64,000 bases of DNA, taken from contig PVWP01000003.1 of assembly GCA_003003925.1 (NCBI GenBank), positions 232,464 to 296,463 on the forward strand, in the 5' to 3' direction. This stretch comes from Aphanothece cf. minutissima CCALA 015 (lineage in GTDB: Bacteria; Cyanobacteriota; Cyanobacteriia; PCC-6307; Cyanobiaceae). Below the pieces are notes generated by a model that was given only the letters and a program-made list of their open reading frames with translations, did no database searches and was not told the origin of the DNA. Shown here piece by piece: positions 46,917 through 54,985 of this stretch. Made by a program: the position numbers and the translations under genes. The stretch's first letter is position 1, and each line of letters begins with the position of its first letter.

Positions 46917-46949
46917 CGATAGAGTGGGTTGTGCCCCATACGGTCTTGC

Positions 46950-49637
46950 ATGGCGGATCCAACCGGACCCGGTGAATCCACCCCCGGCGACTCCGACGGA
47001 CGGATCATCCAGACCGACCTGCGCAATGAGATGTCGCGCTCCTACCTGGAGTATGCGATGAGCGTGATCGTGGGCCGGGCCCTGCCCGATGCCCGCGACG
47101 GCCTCAAGCCGGTGCACCGGCGCATCCTCTACGCGATGTACGAGCTCGGCCTCACGAGCGATCGGCCCTACCGGAAATGTGCCCGTGTGGTGGGGGAGGT
47201 GCTCGGCAAGTACCACCCCCACGGCGACACGGCCGTGTACGACGCCCTGGTGCGCATGGCCCAGGACTTCTCGATGCGGATGCCCCTGATCGACGGGCAC
47301 GGCAACTTCGGCTCGGTCGACAACGATCCGCCGGCCGCCATGCGGTACACGGAATCGCGCCTGCAGGCCCTGACCACCGACAGCCTGCTGGAGGACATCG
47401 AAGCCGAGACCGTCGACTACATCGACAACTTCGACGGCTCCCAGCAGGAACCCACCGTGATGCCGGCCCGGGTGCCGCATCTGCTGCTCAACGGCTCCTC
47501 CGGCATCGCCGTGGGGATGGCGACCAACATCCCCCCCCACAACCTCACCGAGCTGATCGACGGTCTGCTGGCCCTGATCGACGATCCGGAGATCGAGGAC
47601 CGGGCCCTGATGGCGATCATCCCCGGCCCCGATTTCCCCACCGGCGGCCAGATCCTCGGCCGCCGCGGCATCCGCGAGACCTACACCACCGGCCGTGGTT
47701 CGATCACCATGCGCGGCGTGGCCTCCATCGAAACGGTGGAGGCCAAGGGCCGCCCCGACCGGGATGCGGTGATCATCACCGAACTCCCCTACCAGACCAA
47801 CAAGGCCTCCCTGATCGAGCGCATCGCCGAGCTGGTCAACGACAAGAAGCTCGAGGGCATCGCCGACATCCGCGACGAAAGCGATCGCGACGGCATGCGC
47901 ATCGTGATCGAGCTGCGCCGTGACGCCTACCCCCAGGTGGTGCTGAACAACCTGTTCAAGCTGACGCCGCTGCAGAACAACTTCAGCGCCTACATGCTGG
48001 CGCTGGTGAAGGGGGAGCCGGTGCTGCTGACCCTCAGCAAGATGCTGCGGGTGTTCCTCGAGTTCCGCATCGAGACGATCGAGCGGCGCACCCGCTATTT
48101 CCTGCGCAAGGCCGAGGAGCGCGACCACATCCTCCAGGGTCTGCTGCTGGCCCTCGACCAGCTCGATCCGATCATCGCCCTGATCCGGGCCGCCCCCGAC
48201 ACCGCCACCGCCCGGGCCCAGCTGCAGGAGCGCCACGGCCTCAGCGAGATCCAGGCGGACGCCATCCTGCAGATGCAACTGCGGCGTCTCACGGCCCTGG
48301 AGGCCGACAAGATCCGCCTCGAGCACGACGACCTCGTCGCCAAGATCGCCGACTACAAGGACATCCTCGGCCGCAAGGAGCGGGTGCTCGGGCTGATCCG
48401 GGAGGAGCTCCAGGTGCTCCGCACCCGTTACGACTCCCCCCGCCGCACCGAGATCCTGGATCTCGAGGGTGGCCTGGAAGACATCGACCTGATCGCCAAT
48501 GAGCGCTCGGTGGTGCTGCTTACCGAGAACGGCTACCTCAAGCGGATGCCGGTGAGCGAGTTCGAGGCCACCAGCCGCGGCACCCGCGGCAAGGCCGGCA
48601 CCCGCAGCCAGGGGGAGGAGGCGGTGAAGCTGTTCATCAGCTGCAACGACCACGACGCCCTGCTGCTGTTCAGTGACCGGGGGGTGGTGTACTCCATTCC
48701 CGCCTACCGGGTGCCGATCTCCAGCCGTTCCGCCAAGGGCACGCCGATCGTGCAGCTGCTGCCGATTCCGCGGGAAGAGGCCATCACCTCCCTGCTGGCG
48801 GTGAGCGCCTTCGACGACGACGTCCAGCTGGTGATGCTCACCAGCGGCGGCTACATCAAGCGCACCCGTCTGTCGGCCTTCAGCAACATCCGCTCCAACG
48901 GACTGATCGCCATCTCCCTCGAGGACGGCGACGCCCTGCGCTGGGTGCGGCTGGCCCTGCCCGGCGACAGCGTGCTGATCGGCTCCCTCAAGGGGATGAC
49001 GATCCACTTCCGCCTCAGCGACGAGGAACTGCGCCCCCTGGGCCGCAGTGCCCGCGGCGTGCGGGCCATGAACCTGCGACCCGGCGATGAGCTGGTGAGC
49101 ATGGATGTGCTCACGGCAGAACTGGCCGACCGTGTCGCCAGCACGGCTGACGCCGGCGCCGACGAGGAGGAGGGGGACGAGGTCGCCCCCAGTGAGGGCC
49201 CCTGGGTGCTGGTGGCCAGCGCCAGCGGCCTGGGTAAACGGGTACCGGTGGATCAGTTCCGACTGCAGCGCCGCGCCGGCATGGGACTGCGGGCGATCAA
49301 GTTCCGCCGTGACGGCGATGTGCTGGTGGGCCTCAAGGTGCTCGGGGCCGGCGAGGAGCTGCTGCTGGTGAGCGAGCGGGGGGTGATCGTGCGCATGAAG
49401 GCCGACGCCATTCCCCAGCAGTCGCGGGCGGCCACCGGCGTGCGGCTGCAGAAGCTGGATGCCGGTGATCGCCTCACCGAGGTGGTCCTGGTGCCGCCGG
49501 CCGCCGAGGAGGAGGAGCCGGCCGATGCGGTGGAGGCCACGCCGGTGGCCAGCGAAGCCACCCCGGACAGGGGTCCTGAAGCCACGGCGGATGCGGTGGC
49601 CGGCGAGGAGCCCACCGAGGAGCCCACCGACGACTGA
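46950..49637 (+). CDS. gyrA: DNA gyrase subunit A
   Basis: 895 residues. The breakage-reunion core has [33 protein letters not shown], and the catalytic Tyr133 in [10 protein letters not shown]. The C-terminal beta-pinwheel blades are visible from [11 protein letters not shown] onward, and the position of the GyrA box is occupied by SRGTRGK rather than the classical QRRGGKG. It ends in an acidic tail (about residues 850-895) rich in Glu, Ala, Thr and Pro. ATG at 46950 chosen. Confidence 0.93.
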
Positions 49638-49667: not shown

Positions 49668-50732
49668 TCAGCGCTGGCCCAGGGCCCAGAGCAGCAGCAT
49701 CCCGTAGCCGGCCAGGCTGGCCAGCTGCAGCCCCAGCTCCAGCCGTTCGATCCGGCGCTCGAGCCGTGGGGGCAGCGGGCCAGCGCCCTCGCTGGTGAGG
49801 CGATCGAGCCGGTTGGCGCACCAGATGAACTCGCAGAAGAACACCAGGGTCACCAGGTAGGAGAAGGCGTAGAGCCCATCCAGCACGGTGAGATAGGGCA
49901 GGGAGGGCAGGGAGTCGCGGTAGGCCTGCTGCATGAACACCAGCGTCAGCAGGATCACCGGTGGGATCGCCAGCCGCTCGGAGCTGAAGCCGGCCCGCAG
50001 GTTGGGGGTGAGCAGCATCACCACCATGGTGATCGTCAGGGGCAGCAGCCACTTGACCAGCGCCGCCCAGCCGATCGGGTCGTAGAGCAGCTCCATCTCC
50101 ACGCCGCCCTGGCTGGGGAACAGGCGCCAGCTGCGCAGCCGGTAGCCGTTCATGTTGCTGCGACGGCTGACCCCGGAGCCGGCGCGGTCGGGCTCCAGCC
50201 GGATCCTGGGCGGTTCGGCGACTGTGGCGGGGAAGCTGGGGTCGGCCACCAGGCGGATCTGCAGGGGCAGGGTGCCGAACGGGTAACCCCGGTAGTCAAT
50301 CTCGTCGGAATAGAAGTTGCCGTTGAAGCGGTAGTCGCGGCCCAGGTCCGCCCCCAGCCGCAGCGGGCCGCTGCTGGCCTCCAGCAGGGAGTCCCAGGGC
50401 TCCACCAGGTTCTGGAAGCGCACCAGGGTGATGGGATCCACCCCCGCCGCCAGCCACGGCCCCAGCACCGCCGCCGGTGCCGACAGCCGCAGCGTCCCCT
50501 CGACGCTGAAGGTCTTCTCCCGCGAGGAGAAGCGGTAGACGTTGTCCACCGCCATGGCGACGCGGATGGTGACCTCGCGGGGCGTCACCCCGGGGGGCGT
50601 CGCCCCGGGGACCGGCGCAGGCCCCCCTGCCCCAGTTGCCGCGGCAGAACCGCGGCCCGCCAGCAGGGCCAGAACCAGGAGCAGGCCCAGGCAGGCCAGC
50701 GTCGCCAGCCGCCGGCGGGCGAAGCCGCGCAT
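49668..50732 (-). CDS. Pentameric ligand-gated ion channel homologue (Cys-loop superfamily)
   Basis: 354 residues. A signal peptide (to about residue 30) precedes a beta-rich extracellular domain (about 52-218). VTIRVAMAVDNVYRFSSREK and DYRGYPFGTLPLQIRLV (residues 146-162) align by eye with beta-1/beta-2 and loop 2 to Cys-loop-like sequences of the Gloeobacter channel GLIC; NGYRLRSW matches its TGWDIESF. Four membrane helices follow: M1 222-243, M2 253-272, M3 281-305, M4 331-351, with the M2-M3 loop LPSLPY (GLIC LPKTPY) and Glu252 at the -2' position. As in other bacterial members there is no Cys-loop disulfide. Convergent with gyrA. Confidence 0.75.
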   Translation of the reverse strand: MRGFARRRLATLACLGLLLVLALLAGRGSAAATGAGGPAPVPGATPPGVTPREVTIRVAMAVDNVYRFSSREKTFSVEGTLRLSAPAAVLGPWLAAGVDPITLVRFQNLVEPWDSLLEASSGPLRLGADLGRDYRFNGNFYSDEIDYRGYPFGTLPLQIRLVADPSFPATVAEPPRIRLEPDRAGSGVSRRSNMNGYRLRSWRLFPSQGGVEMELLYDPIGWAALVKWLLPLTITMVVMLLTPNLRAGFSSERLAIPPVILLTLVFMQQAYRDSLPSLPYLTVLDGLYAFSYLVTLVFFCEFIWCANRLDRLTSEGAGPLPPRLERRIERLELGLQLASLAGYGMLLLWALGQR

Positions 50733-50770
50733 GGCTGTGGTGCAGGATGAGCCCTCACCGTACCGGCGAG

Positions 50771-52003
50771 ATGGCGAGGGACGTGCTGGTGCTCGGTGGC
50801 GGCCCCGCCGCCCTCTGCATCGCGGCGGCCCTGGCGGAGGAGGGGCTCTCCGTGACGCTGCTGGCGCCCCACGATCCGCGCGCCCCCTGGCCCAACACCT
50901 ACGGGATCTGGGGGGACGAGGTGGACGCCCTGGGCCTGGGCCACCTGCTGGAGCACCGCTGGAGCGACACGGTCAGCTACTTCGGCGCCGGTGATCCGGA
51001 CCCGGGATCGGCGGCCAACCGTCCCACGGCCCACGGCCGCGATTACGGCCTGTTCGACCGTGAGGCCCTGCAGCGGCACTGGCTGGAGGCCTGCGGGCGC
51101 GGCGGTGTGGAGCTGCTCCAGGGGCTGGCCAGCGGCTGCGGGGCCTCCGGCCCGCTGAGTGCGGTGGAGCTTGCCGATGGGCGCCGGCTGCAGGTGCGGC
51201 TGGTGGTGGATGCCACCGGCCATCAGCCGGTGCTGGTGCGGCGGCCTGACCGGGGTCCGGTGGCCGGCCAGTCGGCCTACGGCGTCATCGGCCGCTTCTC
51301 GGCGCCGCCGGTGCAGGCCGATCAGTTCGTGCTGATGGATTACCGCGCCGACCACCTCTCGGAGGCGGAGCGGGCCGGCCCCCCCACGTTTCTCTATGCG
51401 ATGGATCTGGGCGGGGGCCGCTTCTTCGTCGAGGAGACCTCCCTGGCCCTGGCCCCCCCGGTCCCCTTCGAGGTGCTCAGGGAGCGCCTGCACCGGCGCC
51501 TGGCCCACCGCGGCGTGCAGGTGCTGGCGGTGGAGCACGAGGAGTTCTGCCTGTTCCCGATGAACCTGCCCCTGCCGGATCTGCAGCAGCCGGTGCTGGG
51601 CTTCGGGGGGGCGGCGTCGATGGTGCACCCGGCCTCGGGCTACATGGTGGGCGCCCTGCTGCGCCGGGCCCCGGCGGTGGCGGCGGCGGTGGCGGCGGCG
51701 ATGGCCGACCCCGCGGCCCCCTCGGCTCTGCTGGCCCGGGAGGGCTGGCAGGCCCTGTGGCCCCCGGCGCTGCGCAGCAAGCACGCCCTCTACCAGTTCG
51801 GGCTGGGCAAGCTGATGGGCTTCACCGAAGCCGAGCTGCGCCAGTTCTTCGCCAGCTTCTTCTCCCTGGGCGGCCCCCAGTGGTATGGCTTCCTGACCAA
51901 CACCCTGACGGTGCCGCAGCTCCTGGCGGCCATGCTGCGCCTGTTCGCCCTCTCCCCGTGGTCCGTGCGGGCCGGCCTGTTGCTGCCGCCGCGCCGGCCC
52001 TGA
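50771..52003 (+). CDS. crtL: Lycopene cyclase (CrtL type)
   Basis: 410 residues. Flavoprotein-type cyclase that closes the ionone rings of lycopene. FAD-binding loop VLVLGGGPAALCIAAALAEE, the lycopene-cyclase box WPNTYGIWGDEVDALGLG, LVVDATGHQPVLV, and the FFVEETSLA motif are present, followed by LGFGGAASMVHPASGYMVGA. Whether it makes beta or epsilon rings cannot be told by eye. ATG at 50771; it is divergent from the channel gene, 38 bases away. Confidence 0.9.
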   Translation: MARDVLVLGGGPAALCIAAALAEEGLSVTLLAPHDPRAPWPNTYGIWGDEVDALGLGHLLEHRWSDTVSYFGAGDPDPGSAANRPTAHGRDYGLFDREALQRHWLEACGRGGVELLQGLASGCGASGPLSAVELADGRRLQVRLVVDATGHQPVLVRRPDRGPVAGQSAYGVIGRFSAPPVQADQFVLMDYRADHLSEAERAGPPTFLYAMDLGGGRFFVEETSLALAPPVPFEVLRERLHRRLAHRGVQVLAVEHEEFCLFPMNLPLPDLQQPVLGFGGAASMVHPASGYMVGALLRRAPAVAAAVAAAMADPAAPSALLAREGWQALWPPALRSKHALYQFGLGKLMGFTEAELRQFFASFFSLGGPQWYGFLTNTLTVPQLLAAMLRLFALSPWSVRAGLLLPPRRP

Positions 52004-52384: not shown

Positions 52385-54985
52385 ATGCAAAGACATCGGG
52401 ATGCGGTCTGGATCGCGCTGGCTTGGTTATTGGCTGTTTGCAGCACGCCCGCGAAGGCCCAGTTCGCCGGCCCTTACGCCCCATCCCAATGGACGCTGAC
52501 GAACTCCACCTACTTTGACCCTGTGCTGGGTCAGATGGTGCCGGCGAATGGTTTCGTTGACCCCTCGCAGGCACCTGGCTCCATTCAACTGACAGGGCCG
52601 TTCTGGGTCTATTACGGCCCTGATACTCCGAGCTACCAGAATGTAAAGTATACGATCCAAGCGAACCAGGCAGGTACCTATAGCTTCGCGTGGAGCTACA
52701 CGTCGACAGATACCTTTGGACCCCTGTTCTCCGCTCCGGGCTTCATTAATCAAGGGGTTCTCGAGGCTTTCGCCGGTTTCGATTCCTTTGGCCCGATGAG
52801 CCAGTCTGGATCAGGTTCCTACAGTTTTCTCGCCAATGACATTTTCGGCTTTCAGGTCGACTGCATCGACTGCGTGTCAGGACTGTCATCCATCACGATA
52901 TCCGATTTCCTGTTCACACCACCCTTCATTCCGCCGATTCCACCTCCTTTCATCATTCCCGGTAAACCCGCCACAGCCAGCAATCCCTACAGCACCACCT
53001 TTGCCGGCGGCACCATGGTGGTCGACATGCCGGGCATCTTTACCAGTTCGTTCAACACAGGGATCGGCGGCACCATCGACATCAATGGCATGCCGTCACT
53101 GTTCAGTGGCGTCTTCAGTGGGCCGGGTTATCTTGTTTTTTCCAATTCATCCCAGGGGGGCTTCGTTTCTCTTGGGGGAAGCAGCACCTATACAGGACCA
53201 ACAACGGTCGAATCCGGCGTCAACCTCTATGTCAACGGCTCGATCGCCTCATCCTCGGCTCTGAACATCCAATCCGGTGCTCTGGTGGGCGGCAATGGCT
53301 TTCTGCCCCAGACCAACCTCATTCCCGGTGCCATCCTTTCGCCCGGCAACTCCATCGGCACACTCACGGCCAGCGGTCTGAGCCTCAACGGCGGCGCCAT
53401 CGTGGCCGAACTTCAAGGCCCCCAGAGCGACCGCATCAATGTCACCGGCCAGGTCACCCATTTCACGGGAACGGCCTATCTCGTGCCCCATGGCGGTGGC
53501 ATGCCCTGGCCATCGCTGGATTACACGATCCTCTCGGCACCAGCGAGCACGAACTTCGCCACGTTCAACAGCCTGACTCTGAACACCTTTGGCATCACCA
53601 GCGCCCTGCTGCGCTACGGCACCACCCTGATCCAGGAGGCCGATGGCAACCCCCGCACCTTTGATGTCCAGTGGCGACAGCGCAACGGGATCGGCGCCAC
53701 GGCCTCGGCTCTGCAGCTTCTTGGCCAGGGCCGGACCAACCAACTGGCCGCCGCAGGGGTCTTCGACCGCGTCTTCCAGTCGCTGGCCATCAGCAGCGCC
53801 AGCAACGCCAACAACACCGGACTTCCGATCGGCACCAGCGGCTTCAGCACCGGCCAGGCCGCCGCTGCGGGCCTCTCCCCCGATCTCCTGCTGGCCACCA
53901 GCCAACTGCTGACGCTACCCACCGGCAACCAGCTCACCGCGGCCGTGTCGTCCCTCTCCCCGGAGCCCTATGCCGCCTTCCAGAGCGTGGGTCTCAACAC
54001 GCTCAAGCGTCAGCGCGAGCTGCTGCTGGCCCAGGCCGGCCATTGCCGCACCACGGGCTGGGTGGTGAACACCTCCGGCAGCAGCGCGAACAGGCAGGGC
54101 CGACACCCCTTCTGCATCTTTGCCCTGGGGGCCAACGCCACCAGCTCCGTCCGGGGCCAGGACGGACTCGACTCCTATGACGCCGGAATCTTCTCCAGCG
54201 CCTACGGCATCGAATACCAGCCGAACGACCGCTTCACCCTGGGGGCCGCCTACGGCTATGGCACCTCCAACCTCAGCGTCATGGCCCGGTCCAACGGGTC
54301 GGTGTCATCGAAGGTCAACAGCGGCAGCCTTTATGGCGTGTACAGGCCATCACCGGCCTGGACGCTGCGCGGCCTGTTCGGCTACAGCGGTTTCCAACTC
54401 GACGGCAGCCGCCGTCTCTCCTTCATCGGCTCCGGATCACCCATCGCCGCCAACCCCAGCGCCAATGGCCTCACCCTGGCCCTGAACGCCGATGTGCAGA
54501 TTCCGCTCACCGGGCCCAAGGCAAGGACGGCCATCGTCCTCAAGCCCCTGCTCGGTGTGGCCTGGGGCCGTTATCAGCAGGGCGGCTTCCAGGAATCGGA
54601 CCGTGGTGTCCTGACCATGAACGTCCAGGGTCATACCTCCGACAGCCTGTTGGGAACCATCGGGGCGGAGTTGACCACGGCTCCGATGTCCCTGAACAGG
54701 GCGGACACGGTGGCCCTCACCCCACGGCTGGCCGTGGCTTACCAGGTGGATGTCCTGGCTGCCAACAGGAGCAACACGTCAGTGACGGCCTCCTTCACGG
54801 GGGCACCGGCGGCTGGCTCCTTTCCGACGCAAGGGGAGAACCGTGGCACCAACACCGTCACGGTCGATGCGGGGGTTGATCTGAAGGTGGCAAAGAACGC
54901 CTCGCTCTACGCCAGCGTGGGCTACGAGATCTTCTCCACCGGCTCCCAGCTCAGCTACGGCGGGGGCCTGAAGCTCAGTTTCTGA
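52385..54985 (+). CDS. Autotransporter-domain outer-membrane protein
   Basis: 866 residues. Signal peptide to about residue 25 (STPAKA), then a 150-residue N-terminal domain with PEP-type beta-rich sequence, a Pro-rich linker (FTPPFIPPIPPPFIIP, about residues 178-193), and one autotransporter-associated beta-strand repeat (SSTYTGPTTVESGVNLYVNG). The C-terminal 290 residues form a classical autotransporter beta-barrel with alternating aromatic strands (AAYGYGTSNLSV, LYGVYRPSPAWTLRGLFGYS) and a terminal Phe (GGGLKLSF). It should be displayed on the outer membrane. The first 800 bases are less GC-rich than the rest of the window. Confidence 0.88.
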   Translation: MQRHRDAVWIALAWLLAVCSTPAKAQFAGPYAPSQWTLTNSTYFDPVLGQMVPANGFVDPSQAPGSIQLTGPFWVYYGPDTPSYQNVKYTIQANQAGTYSFAWSYTSTDTFGPLFSAPGFINQGVLEAFAGFDSFGPMSQSGSGSYSFLANDIFGFQVDCIDCVSGLSSITISDFLFTPPFIPPIPPPFIIPGKPATASNPYSTTFAGGTMVVDMPGIFTSSFNTGIGGTIDINGMPSLFSGVFSGPGYLVFSNSSQGGFVSLGGSSTYTGPTTVESGVNLYVNGSIASSSALNIQSGALVGGNGFLPQTNLIPGAILSPGNSIGTLTASGLSLNGGAIVAELQGPQSDRINVTGQVTHFTGTAYLVPHGGGMPWPSLDYTILSAPASTNFATFNSLTLNTFGITSALLRYGTTLIQEADGNPRTFDVQWRQRNGIGATASALQLLGQGRTNQLAAAGVFDRVFQSLAISSASNANNTGLPIGTSGFSTGQAAAAGLSPDLLLATSQLLTLPTGNQLTAAVSSLSPEPYAAFQSVGLNTLKRQRELLLAQAGHCRTTGWVVNTSGSSANRQGRHPFCIFALGANATSSVRGQDGLDSYDAGIFSSAYGIEYQPNDRFTLGAAYGYGTSNLSVMARSNGSVSSKVNSGSLYGVYRPSPAWTLRGLFGYSGFQLDGSRRLSFIGSGSPIAANPSANGLTLALNADVQIPLTGPKARTAIVLKPLLGVAWGRYQQGGFQESDRGVLTMNVQGHTSDSLLGTIGAELTTAPMSLNRADTVALTPRLAVAYQVDVLAANRSNTSVTASFTGAPAAGSFPTQGENRGTNTVTVDAGVDLKVAKNASLYASVGYEIFSTGSQLSYGGGLKLSF

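Follow-up and report, generated by a model that had tools for sequence, protein, structure and literature searches.

A window of 64,000 nucleotides from the genome of Aphanothece cf. minutissima CCALA 015 (contig PVWP01000003.1, positions 232,464 to 296,463) was found to encode, on its minus strand at 49668..50732, a 354-residue protein whose ancestry and fold make it a pentameric ligand-gated ion channel (pLGIC) and whose losses set it apart as a variant within that superfamily. Its clade is picocyanobacterial, and sequence comparison suggests that the classical ligand site between subunits has been taken apart there. Superfamily membership, the losses, the conservation of what is kept, the mostly stand-alone occurrence of the gene and its dispensability were computed directly, and we see an even chance that the protein is a homomeric channel which is not driven through the classical site. 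The existence of a pLGIC family in cyanobacteria is not itself new: cyanobacterial members were already listed by Tasneem et al. (PMC549065) and again in 2016 by Jaiteh et al. (PMC4795631), whose set has one from Synechococcus.

When searched alone, the window protein matched no Pfam family, reached the NCBIfam model LGIC_1 at a sub-threshold E-value of 0.0076 and had a best phmmer match in the PDB at E 0.024, the best 60 of 62 matches all being pLGICs or chimeras. A profile of 10 sequences from congeneric genomes (A1) matched ELIC of Dickeya/Erwinia at 2.6e-13, and with a profile of 75 sequences (A2) the E-values were 8e-17 for a GLIC chimera and ~1e-16 for ELIC, nearly the whole length being aligned. 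Full-length similarity to the superfamily was thus found through the A2 profile and not through the single sequence. A profile comparison with ligand-gated channels had been proposed as a check in a preliminary description of this DNA, and the homology claimed there is now backed by profile, fold and four-helix topology. A2 consists of the window protein and 74 of 80 fetched loci; three near copies (L065, L068, L073) and three incomplete or oddly ending sequences (L093, L095, L109) were omitted from it and from all counts, and a further model (model 2) comprised 45 sequences. None of the 75 members matched a pLGIC family of Pfam at E <= 0.01 (on 10 members the best such match was Neur_chan_memb at E 0.34, in one of the ten), and at the same threshold NCBIfam returned LGIC_1 for 34 and LIC for 13 of the 75 (best E 2.6e-5). 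With no Pfam match and NCBIfam matches for only part of its members, the family will mostly escape routine annotation, as had been anticipated from the expectation that such a gene would usually be labelled only as hypothetical.

The single-chain structural model shows the architecture of the superfamily, a beta-sandwich extracellular domain (ECD) followed by four transmembrane helices, and the beta-rich domain and four helices reported earlier are therefore present by DSSP. All features of the gene lie on the minus strand. A signal-peptide-like N-terminal region (residues 1–34, 50631..50732; boundary set by eye, with a helix at 2–25 in the model) precedes the extracellular/periplasmic beta-sandwich (residues 53–220, 50073..50576, from DSSP). 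The helices predicted by the model are M1 (residues 221–244, 50001..50072), with the conserved kink Pro231 seen in the alignment, M2 (247–273, 49914..49994, also placed by alignment), M3 (283–314, 49791..49886) and M4 (322–353, 49674..49769).

In a quick tree calculated without the loop C columns, the window protein and 13 others form one clade with a Shimodaira-Hasegawa-like approximate likelihood ratio test (SH-aLRT) support of 100% and a stem of 1.65 changes per column. Of the other 13, some are from strains of Synechococcus or Cyanobium, and the rest from one Aphanothece assembly and cyanobacterial metagenome assemblies. The preliminary description had correctly recognized a channel homologue but had not noticed that it sits in a derived clade inside a larger family. 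Counts given below contrast the 14 clade members with the 61 relatives in A2, many of which are close kin and represent fewer independent cases than is apparent.

The apparent loss of the ligand site shows in the beta9–beta10 hairpin (residues 197–219, 50076..50144, from alignment and model), which ends at Pro219 and in which loop C is cut to a two-residue turn at 208–209; a Synechococcus WH7803 relative was modelled with a longer hairpin (212–249). Counted from Gly196 to the M1 proline, the chain runs to 36–40 residues in all 14 clade members and 50–57 in all 61 relatives, with no overlap. From the beta-9 aromatic to the M1 proline there are 34 residues in the window protein, compared with 44 in GLIC (W160 to P204), 42 in GABA-A beta3 and 43 in 5-HT3 as given in Table 1 of Jaiteh et al. 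(PMC4795631). The beta-2 positions 82 and 85 (50478..50489, by alignment) have also changed: Trp82, found in 61/61 relatives, is absent from the clade (0/14) and replaced by Arg in 13 of 14, and Trp85, which aligns with GLIC W47 and is found in 59/61 relatives, is Ala throughout the clade (14/14). Aromatic residues at 130 (46/61 relatives) and at 208 (41/61, in a gapped loop C column of unsure alignment) are likewise lacking in all 14. A loop C hairpin capping an aromatic box is consequently not present in the window protein. No paper on a natural pLGIC without loop C was found among the open-licence papers searched, and the available parts of PMC549065 and PMC4795631 do not describe a clade lacking loop C and both residues of the salt bridge considered next.

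The positions that vary least across the superfamily are set out in Table 1 of Jaiteh et al. (PMC4795631), the FPxD Asp at 93% and the pre-M1 Arg at 94% being among them. The window protein agrees with five of its seven rows, namely the beta6–beta7 aromatic and Pro, the beta9 aromatic, the M1 Pro and the M2–M3 Pro, and the two that fail are the salt-bridge pair, in which Asp is replaced by Gly153 and Arg by Pro219. In the beta6–beta7 Pro-loop, which reads YPFG (residues 150–153, 50274..50285, by alignment on the Table 1 criteria), Tyr150 and Pro151 are found in 14/14 clade members, and position 153 is Gly in 13 and Asp in one, compared with an acid in 39 of 61 relatives (Asp 21, Glu 18). Position 219 is Pro in all 14, compared with Arg in one and Lys in five of the 61; at position 218 a base is found in 28 of 61 relatives (Arg 18, Lys 10) and Asp or Glu in 11 of 14 clade members. 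ELIC, unlike the window protein, has kept the pre-M1 Arg, which in the alignment precedes the M1 Pro by 12 residues. As the FPxD Asp is highly conserved but not absolute, its loss marks a variant, and homology is decided by fold and profile. What is kept is constant: Tyr197 (beta9 aromatic), Pro231 (M1), Pro276 (M2–M3), Arg253 (0') and Leu262 (9') each occur in 14/14. The ratio of nonsynonymous to synonymous substitution (dN/dS) within the clade is 0.16–0.43 (nine sequences), and the fold, the M1 kink, the M2–M3 Pro, the 0' Arg and the 9' Leu are, as judged from the sequences, kept under purifying selection.

M2 was numbered by a gapless count in which GLIC P247 equals Pro276. This gives Glu252 at -1', Arg253 at 0', Ala at 2', Pro at 4' and 5', Val at 6', Leu at 9', Phe at 13', Gln at 16' and Asp at 20'. 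Positions -2' to 16' are identical in all 14 members apart from 6' (Val 13, Met 1). Across the 75 sequences Gln15' is invariant and Phe13' occurs in 74. The acid before M2, at -2' in 61/61 relatives, is shifted to -1' in 14/14 of the clade, so that Glu252, which had been assigned to the -2' position of GLIC, is placed one residue later. It provides the acidic ring just before M2 that is expected of a cation-selective pLGIC, and because of this Glu ring a preference for cations would be predicted by analogy; pre-M2 charge is reported to play a part in ion selectivity (PMC4795631). ELIC, among the best profile matches, shares with the window protein the M2 start SERL and the M2–M3 segment LPxLPYxTVxD, but has a longer hairpin and polar residues at 2' (Gln) and 6' (Thr), where the window protein has Ala and Val.

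The gene lies between gyrA (46929..49637, plus strand), a convergent neighbour separated from it by 30 bp, and crtL (lycopene beta cyclase, 50771..52003, plus strand), a divergent neighbour; both were assigned above cut-off by NCBIfam, gyrA as DNA gyrase A. The adjacency to gyrA noted earlier is thus correct, with crtL on the other side. A close orthologue (at least 73% identity) was found in 9 of 42 congeneric genomes, and a sensitive search with the family alignment gave some pLGIC match at E <= 1e-3 in 35 of the 42. At that threshold the window-type gene is the sole pLGIC match in eight of the nine carriers, two of the eight being only 85 and 88% complete; a heteromer with a second pLGIC of the genome is therefore not a general arrangement. 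Other pLGICs occur in 1 of 9 carriers vs 26 of 33 non-carriers (Fisher p 4e-4).

A crtL match was found in 41 of 42 genomes, and 30 crtL loci were covered. The gene stands between gyrA and crtL in nine of these; in 11 gyrA and crtL are neighbours and the gene is missing, and in the other 10 the flank holds neither the gene nor gyrA. Close relatives differ in carriage, with G005 and G009 having the gene and G002 and G001 lacking it at 91–93% crtL identity. At the empty site L113 the final 42 bp of the gene survive together with the sequence that follows them, as do the initial 13 bp with the sequence preceding them; this scar is strong on both sides. The empty site L116 retains the first 52 bp (5' score 62.5 vs a shuffled maximum of 16.5) and, with weaker support, the last 16 bp (a 17-bp 3' match scoring 17.0 vs 15.5, barely above). 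The two scars are complementary, each keeping what the other lost. At L123 and L125 the 3' matches lie slightly above the shuffled maximum and the 5' matches end just outside the gene; at L120 no 3' match exceeded the shuffled maximum, and at L124 no match did. The retained pieces show at least two independent deletions at the gyrA–crtL site, and L123 and L125 likely represent a third type. Since independent deletions left gene pieces behind, the gene is, on this sequence evidence, old at the site and dispensable. Insertion of a mobile gene was rejected as an explanation, as absence at the two sites that retain gene pieces is due to deletion. Near-repeats of ~7 and ~11 bp recur on both sides of the scars in L113 and L116, consistent with deletion between short repeats.

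In the mechanism we propose, the protein is a pLGIC-superfamily member exported to the membrane, most likely a homopentamer, in which loop C has been trimmed, the beta-2 Trp pair and other aromatics lost and the salt bridge from binding site to gate removed. The channel would conduct, with a preference for cations through the -1' Glu ring, and would open in response to some trigger that is not an agonist beneath loop C. Candidate stimuli are the state of the lipids or the membrane, an ion or proton acting where the domains meet, and contact of another protein with the bare ECD. We infer the pentamer, conduction, cation preference and stimulus from the features described above.

Several observations weigh against this proposal or parts of it. 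The structural model is a monomer and so does not address the pentamer, and the single-sequence homology signals are weak. With Ala at 2', Val at 6', Leu at 9' and Phe at 13', the pore is lined by apolar residues and might not conduct, and Thr6', found in 60/61 relatives, occurs in 0/14 of the clade. M2 carries a Pro at 4' in 75/75 sequences and a second at 5' in 14/14 clade members and 8/61 relatives; a Pro at 4' is not known from solved pLGICs. The literature searches turned up no electrophysiological recordings from members of the family. The carriers are closely related, so that 14 sequences amount to few independent events; the statistic by which carriers lack other pLGICs ignores kinship, and some of the 26 matches in non-carriers are weak or broken (G028, G032, G038). 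The scar evidence is uneven across L113, L116, L120, L123, L124 and L125. On the crtL tree, presence and absence require six changes vs a shuffled mean of 6.7–6.8, with 186–204 of 500 shuffles as low, and the starred branches force only three changes, leaving the number of losses uncertain.

The main rival is a non-conducting derivative, in which the pentamer would be kept as a periplasmic or membrane scaffold or sensor that no longer passes ions. The apolar face from 2' to 13', with the polar 6' Thr lost, is the main reason for doubting conduction, and the missing salt-bridge pair, the missing loop C and the long stem branch point the same way. In alpha-7 receptors, changes at the interface between the ECD and the transmembrane domain can silence the receptor electrically, linker length outweighing mere substitution (PMC11601209), which by analogy warns against assuming conduction without deciding it. 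However, a pore that had ceased to work should drift, whereas M2 is strongly conserved in the clade: Glu -1' and Arg 0' never vary, and the residues at 16' (Gln) and 20' (Asp/Glu) remain polar. We regard this rival as somewhat unlikely, yet it is the one to be taken most seriously.

Next comes a re-purposed ligand-gated channel, its pocket rebuilt with clade-specific arginines for a different, probably anionic, ligand. Arg82 (13/14), Arg132 (14/14) and Arg191 (13/14) would fit such a pocket, as would a mean ECD net charge of +0.3 in the clade vs -7.0 in the 61 relatives. These arginines may or may not face the subunit interface, though, and by the model no loop C would remain to cap a ligand, which makes the rebuilt pocket improbable.

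A GLIC-like proton-gated cation channel, as the preliminary description implied, is very improbable because the compared GLIC titratable positions are not kept. GLIC E26, D32, E35, D122, E222, H235 and E243 align with Asn64, Ser70, Lys73, Gly153, Ser251, Leu264 and Arg272 (E26, D32 and E35 by hidden Markov model alignment, D122 by the FPxD motif, and E222, H235 and E243 by the gapless count from Pro276; the comparison covers these seven and excludes H277). Compared with GLIC, the window protein thus lacks these titratable residues as well as the FPxD Asp, the pre-M1 Arg and an equivalent of W47. GLIC, which comes from Gloeobacter violaceus, is, however, among the closest solved folds to the model and opens without an orthosteric agonist, and the pre-M2 Glu is present, if one place later. 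According to the account of titratable-residue roles in PMC5760087, GLIC E35K and H235Q are still proton-gated, so such losses by themselves are no proof against proton gating. That the protein is no pLGIC at all, but an unrelated membrane protein or a spurious high-GC open reading frame (ORF), is hardly credible, as the absent Pfam match and weak single-sequence E-values are outweighed by profile and fold results that already refute it. A spurious antisense ORF was likewise rejected: several long plus-strand ORFs overlap the gene, yet homology, fold and dN/dS are all on the minus strand.

With regard to the neighbourhood, the G+C content at third codon positions is similar in the pLGIC gene (0.935), gyrA (0.914) and crtL (0.937). 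The pLGIC gene and crtL form a very tight divergent pair (50732–50771), in which 38 bp separate the two start codons, and just 14 bp should the in-frame ATG at 50747 be the true start of crtL. At orthologue loci with crtL in the cluster, mechanically called ORFs lie 15–37 bp apart in 9 of 12 and overlap through start choice in the other three. As the start codons are so close, the promoters of the pair probably overlap coding sequence. The crtL neighbourhood was rejected as a clue to function, since 11 of 30 loci have gyrA next to crtL and no pLGIC gene between them, and both neighbours are probably incidental. After crtL, an 866-aa ORF (52385–54985, plus strand) appears by eye to encode a secreted passenger and an outer-membrane barrel, autotransporter-like; NCBIfam at 1e-5 gave no family.

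The genome has a second pLGIC (L002, C17:12921-13844), 34% identical and with a longer loop C, located between dnaJ and hemB, a site also occupied by relatives in several related genomes. The uncharacterised relatives, of the same family at 24–35% identity, include dnaJ–hemB and rpaB-linked groups of Cyanobium/Synechococcus and a urtA-linked group. In 22 of the 80 fetched loci (L045-L050, L052, L056-L059, L061-L064, L066, L068, L075, L089, L095, L097, L108) the relative adjoins a periplasmic binding protein gene of one family, UrtA-type, on the same strand within ~52 bp or overlapping in 21 and convergent in one. Three of the 22 were tested and matched the UrtA model TIGR03407 (E 3.8e-131 to 1.2e-153), one of them above cut-off, and several appear lipoprotein-like by eye. 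Four phyla are represented among the hosts, through Synechococcus, Myxococcota, Gammaproteobacteria and Verrucomicrobiota. At the eight loci for which flanking ORFs were listed, no further urea-transporter genes were seen by eye beside the pair, and the arrangement suggests a two-gene unit of binding protein and channel. Two other relatives (L105:2655-3800 and L107:956-2083) adjoin a branched-chain-amino-acid-type binding protein gene (E 4.7e-16 and 1.9e-10, both below cut-off). The available text of Tasneem et al. (PMC549065) describes PBP-I fusions and PBP-II neighbours and does not contain the word urea, and no paper on a urea-binding-protein partner of a pLGIC was found among the open-licence papers searched.

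According to Jaiteh et al. (PMC4795631), no biological role is known for the pLGIC of any single-celled organism, and the literature available on cyanobacterial pLGIC roles yielded nothing on point. The family described here is genetically addressable, the gene being mostly stand-alone and dispensable and close relatives existing with or without it, and its urtA-linked group offers a testable stimulus. A natural variant without loop C and the Asp–Arg pair tests which parts of the receptor gating needs. It is conceivable, though we would put it at rather less than even, that this is a natural pLGIC lineage without a neurotransmitter site, loop C or the near-universal binding–gating salt bridge which still functions as a homomeric channel under the control of the membrane or of a partner protein. 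If true, the transmembrane machine can run in nature without its ligand site or coupling pair.
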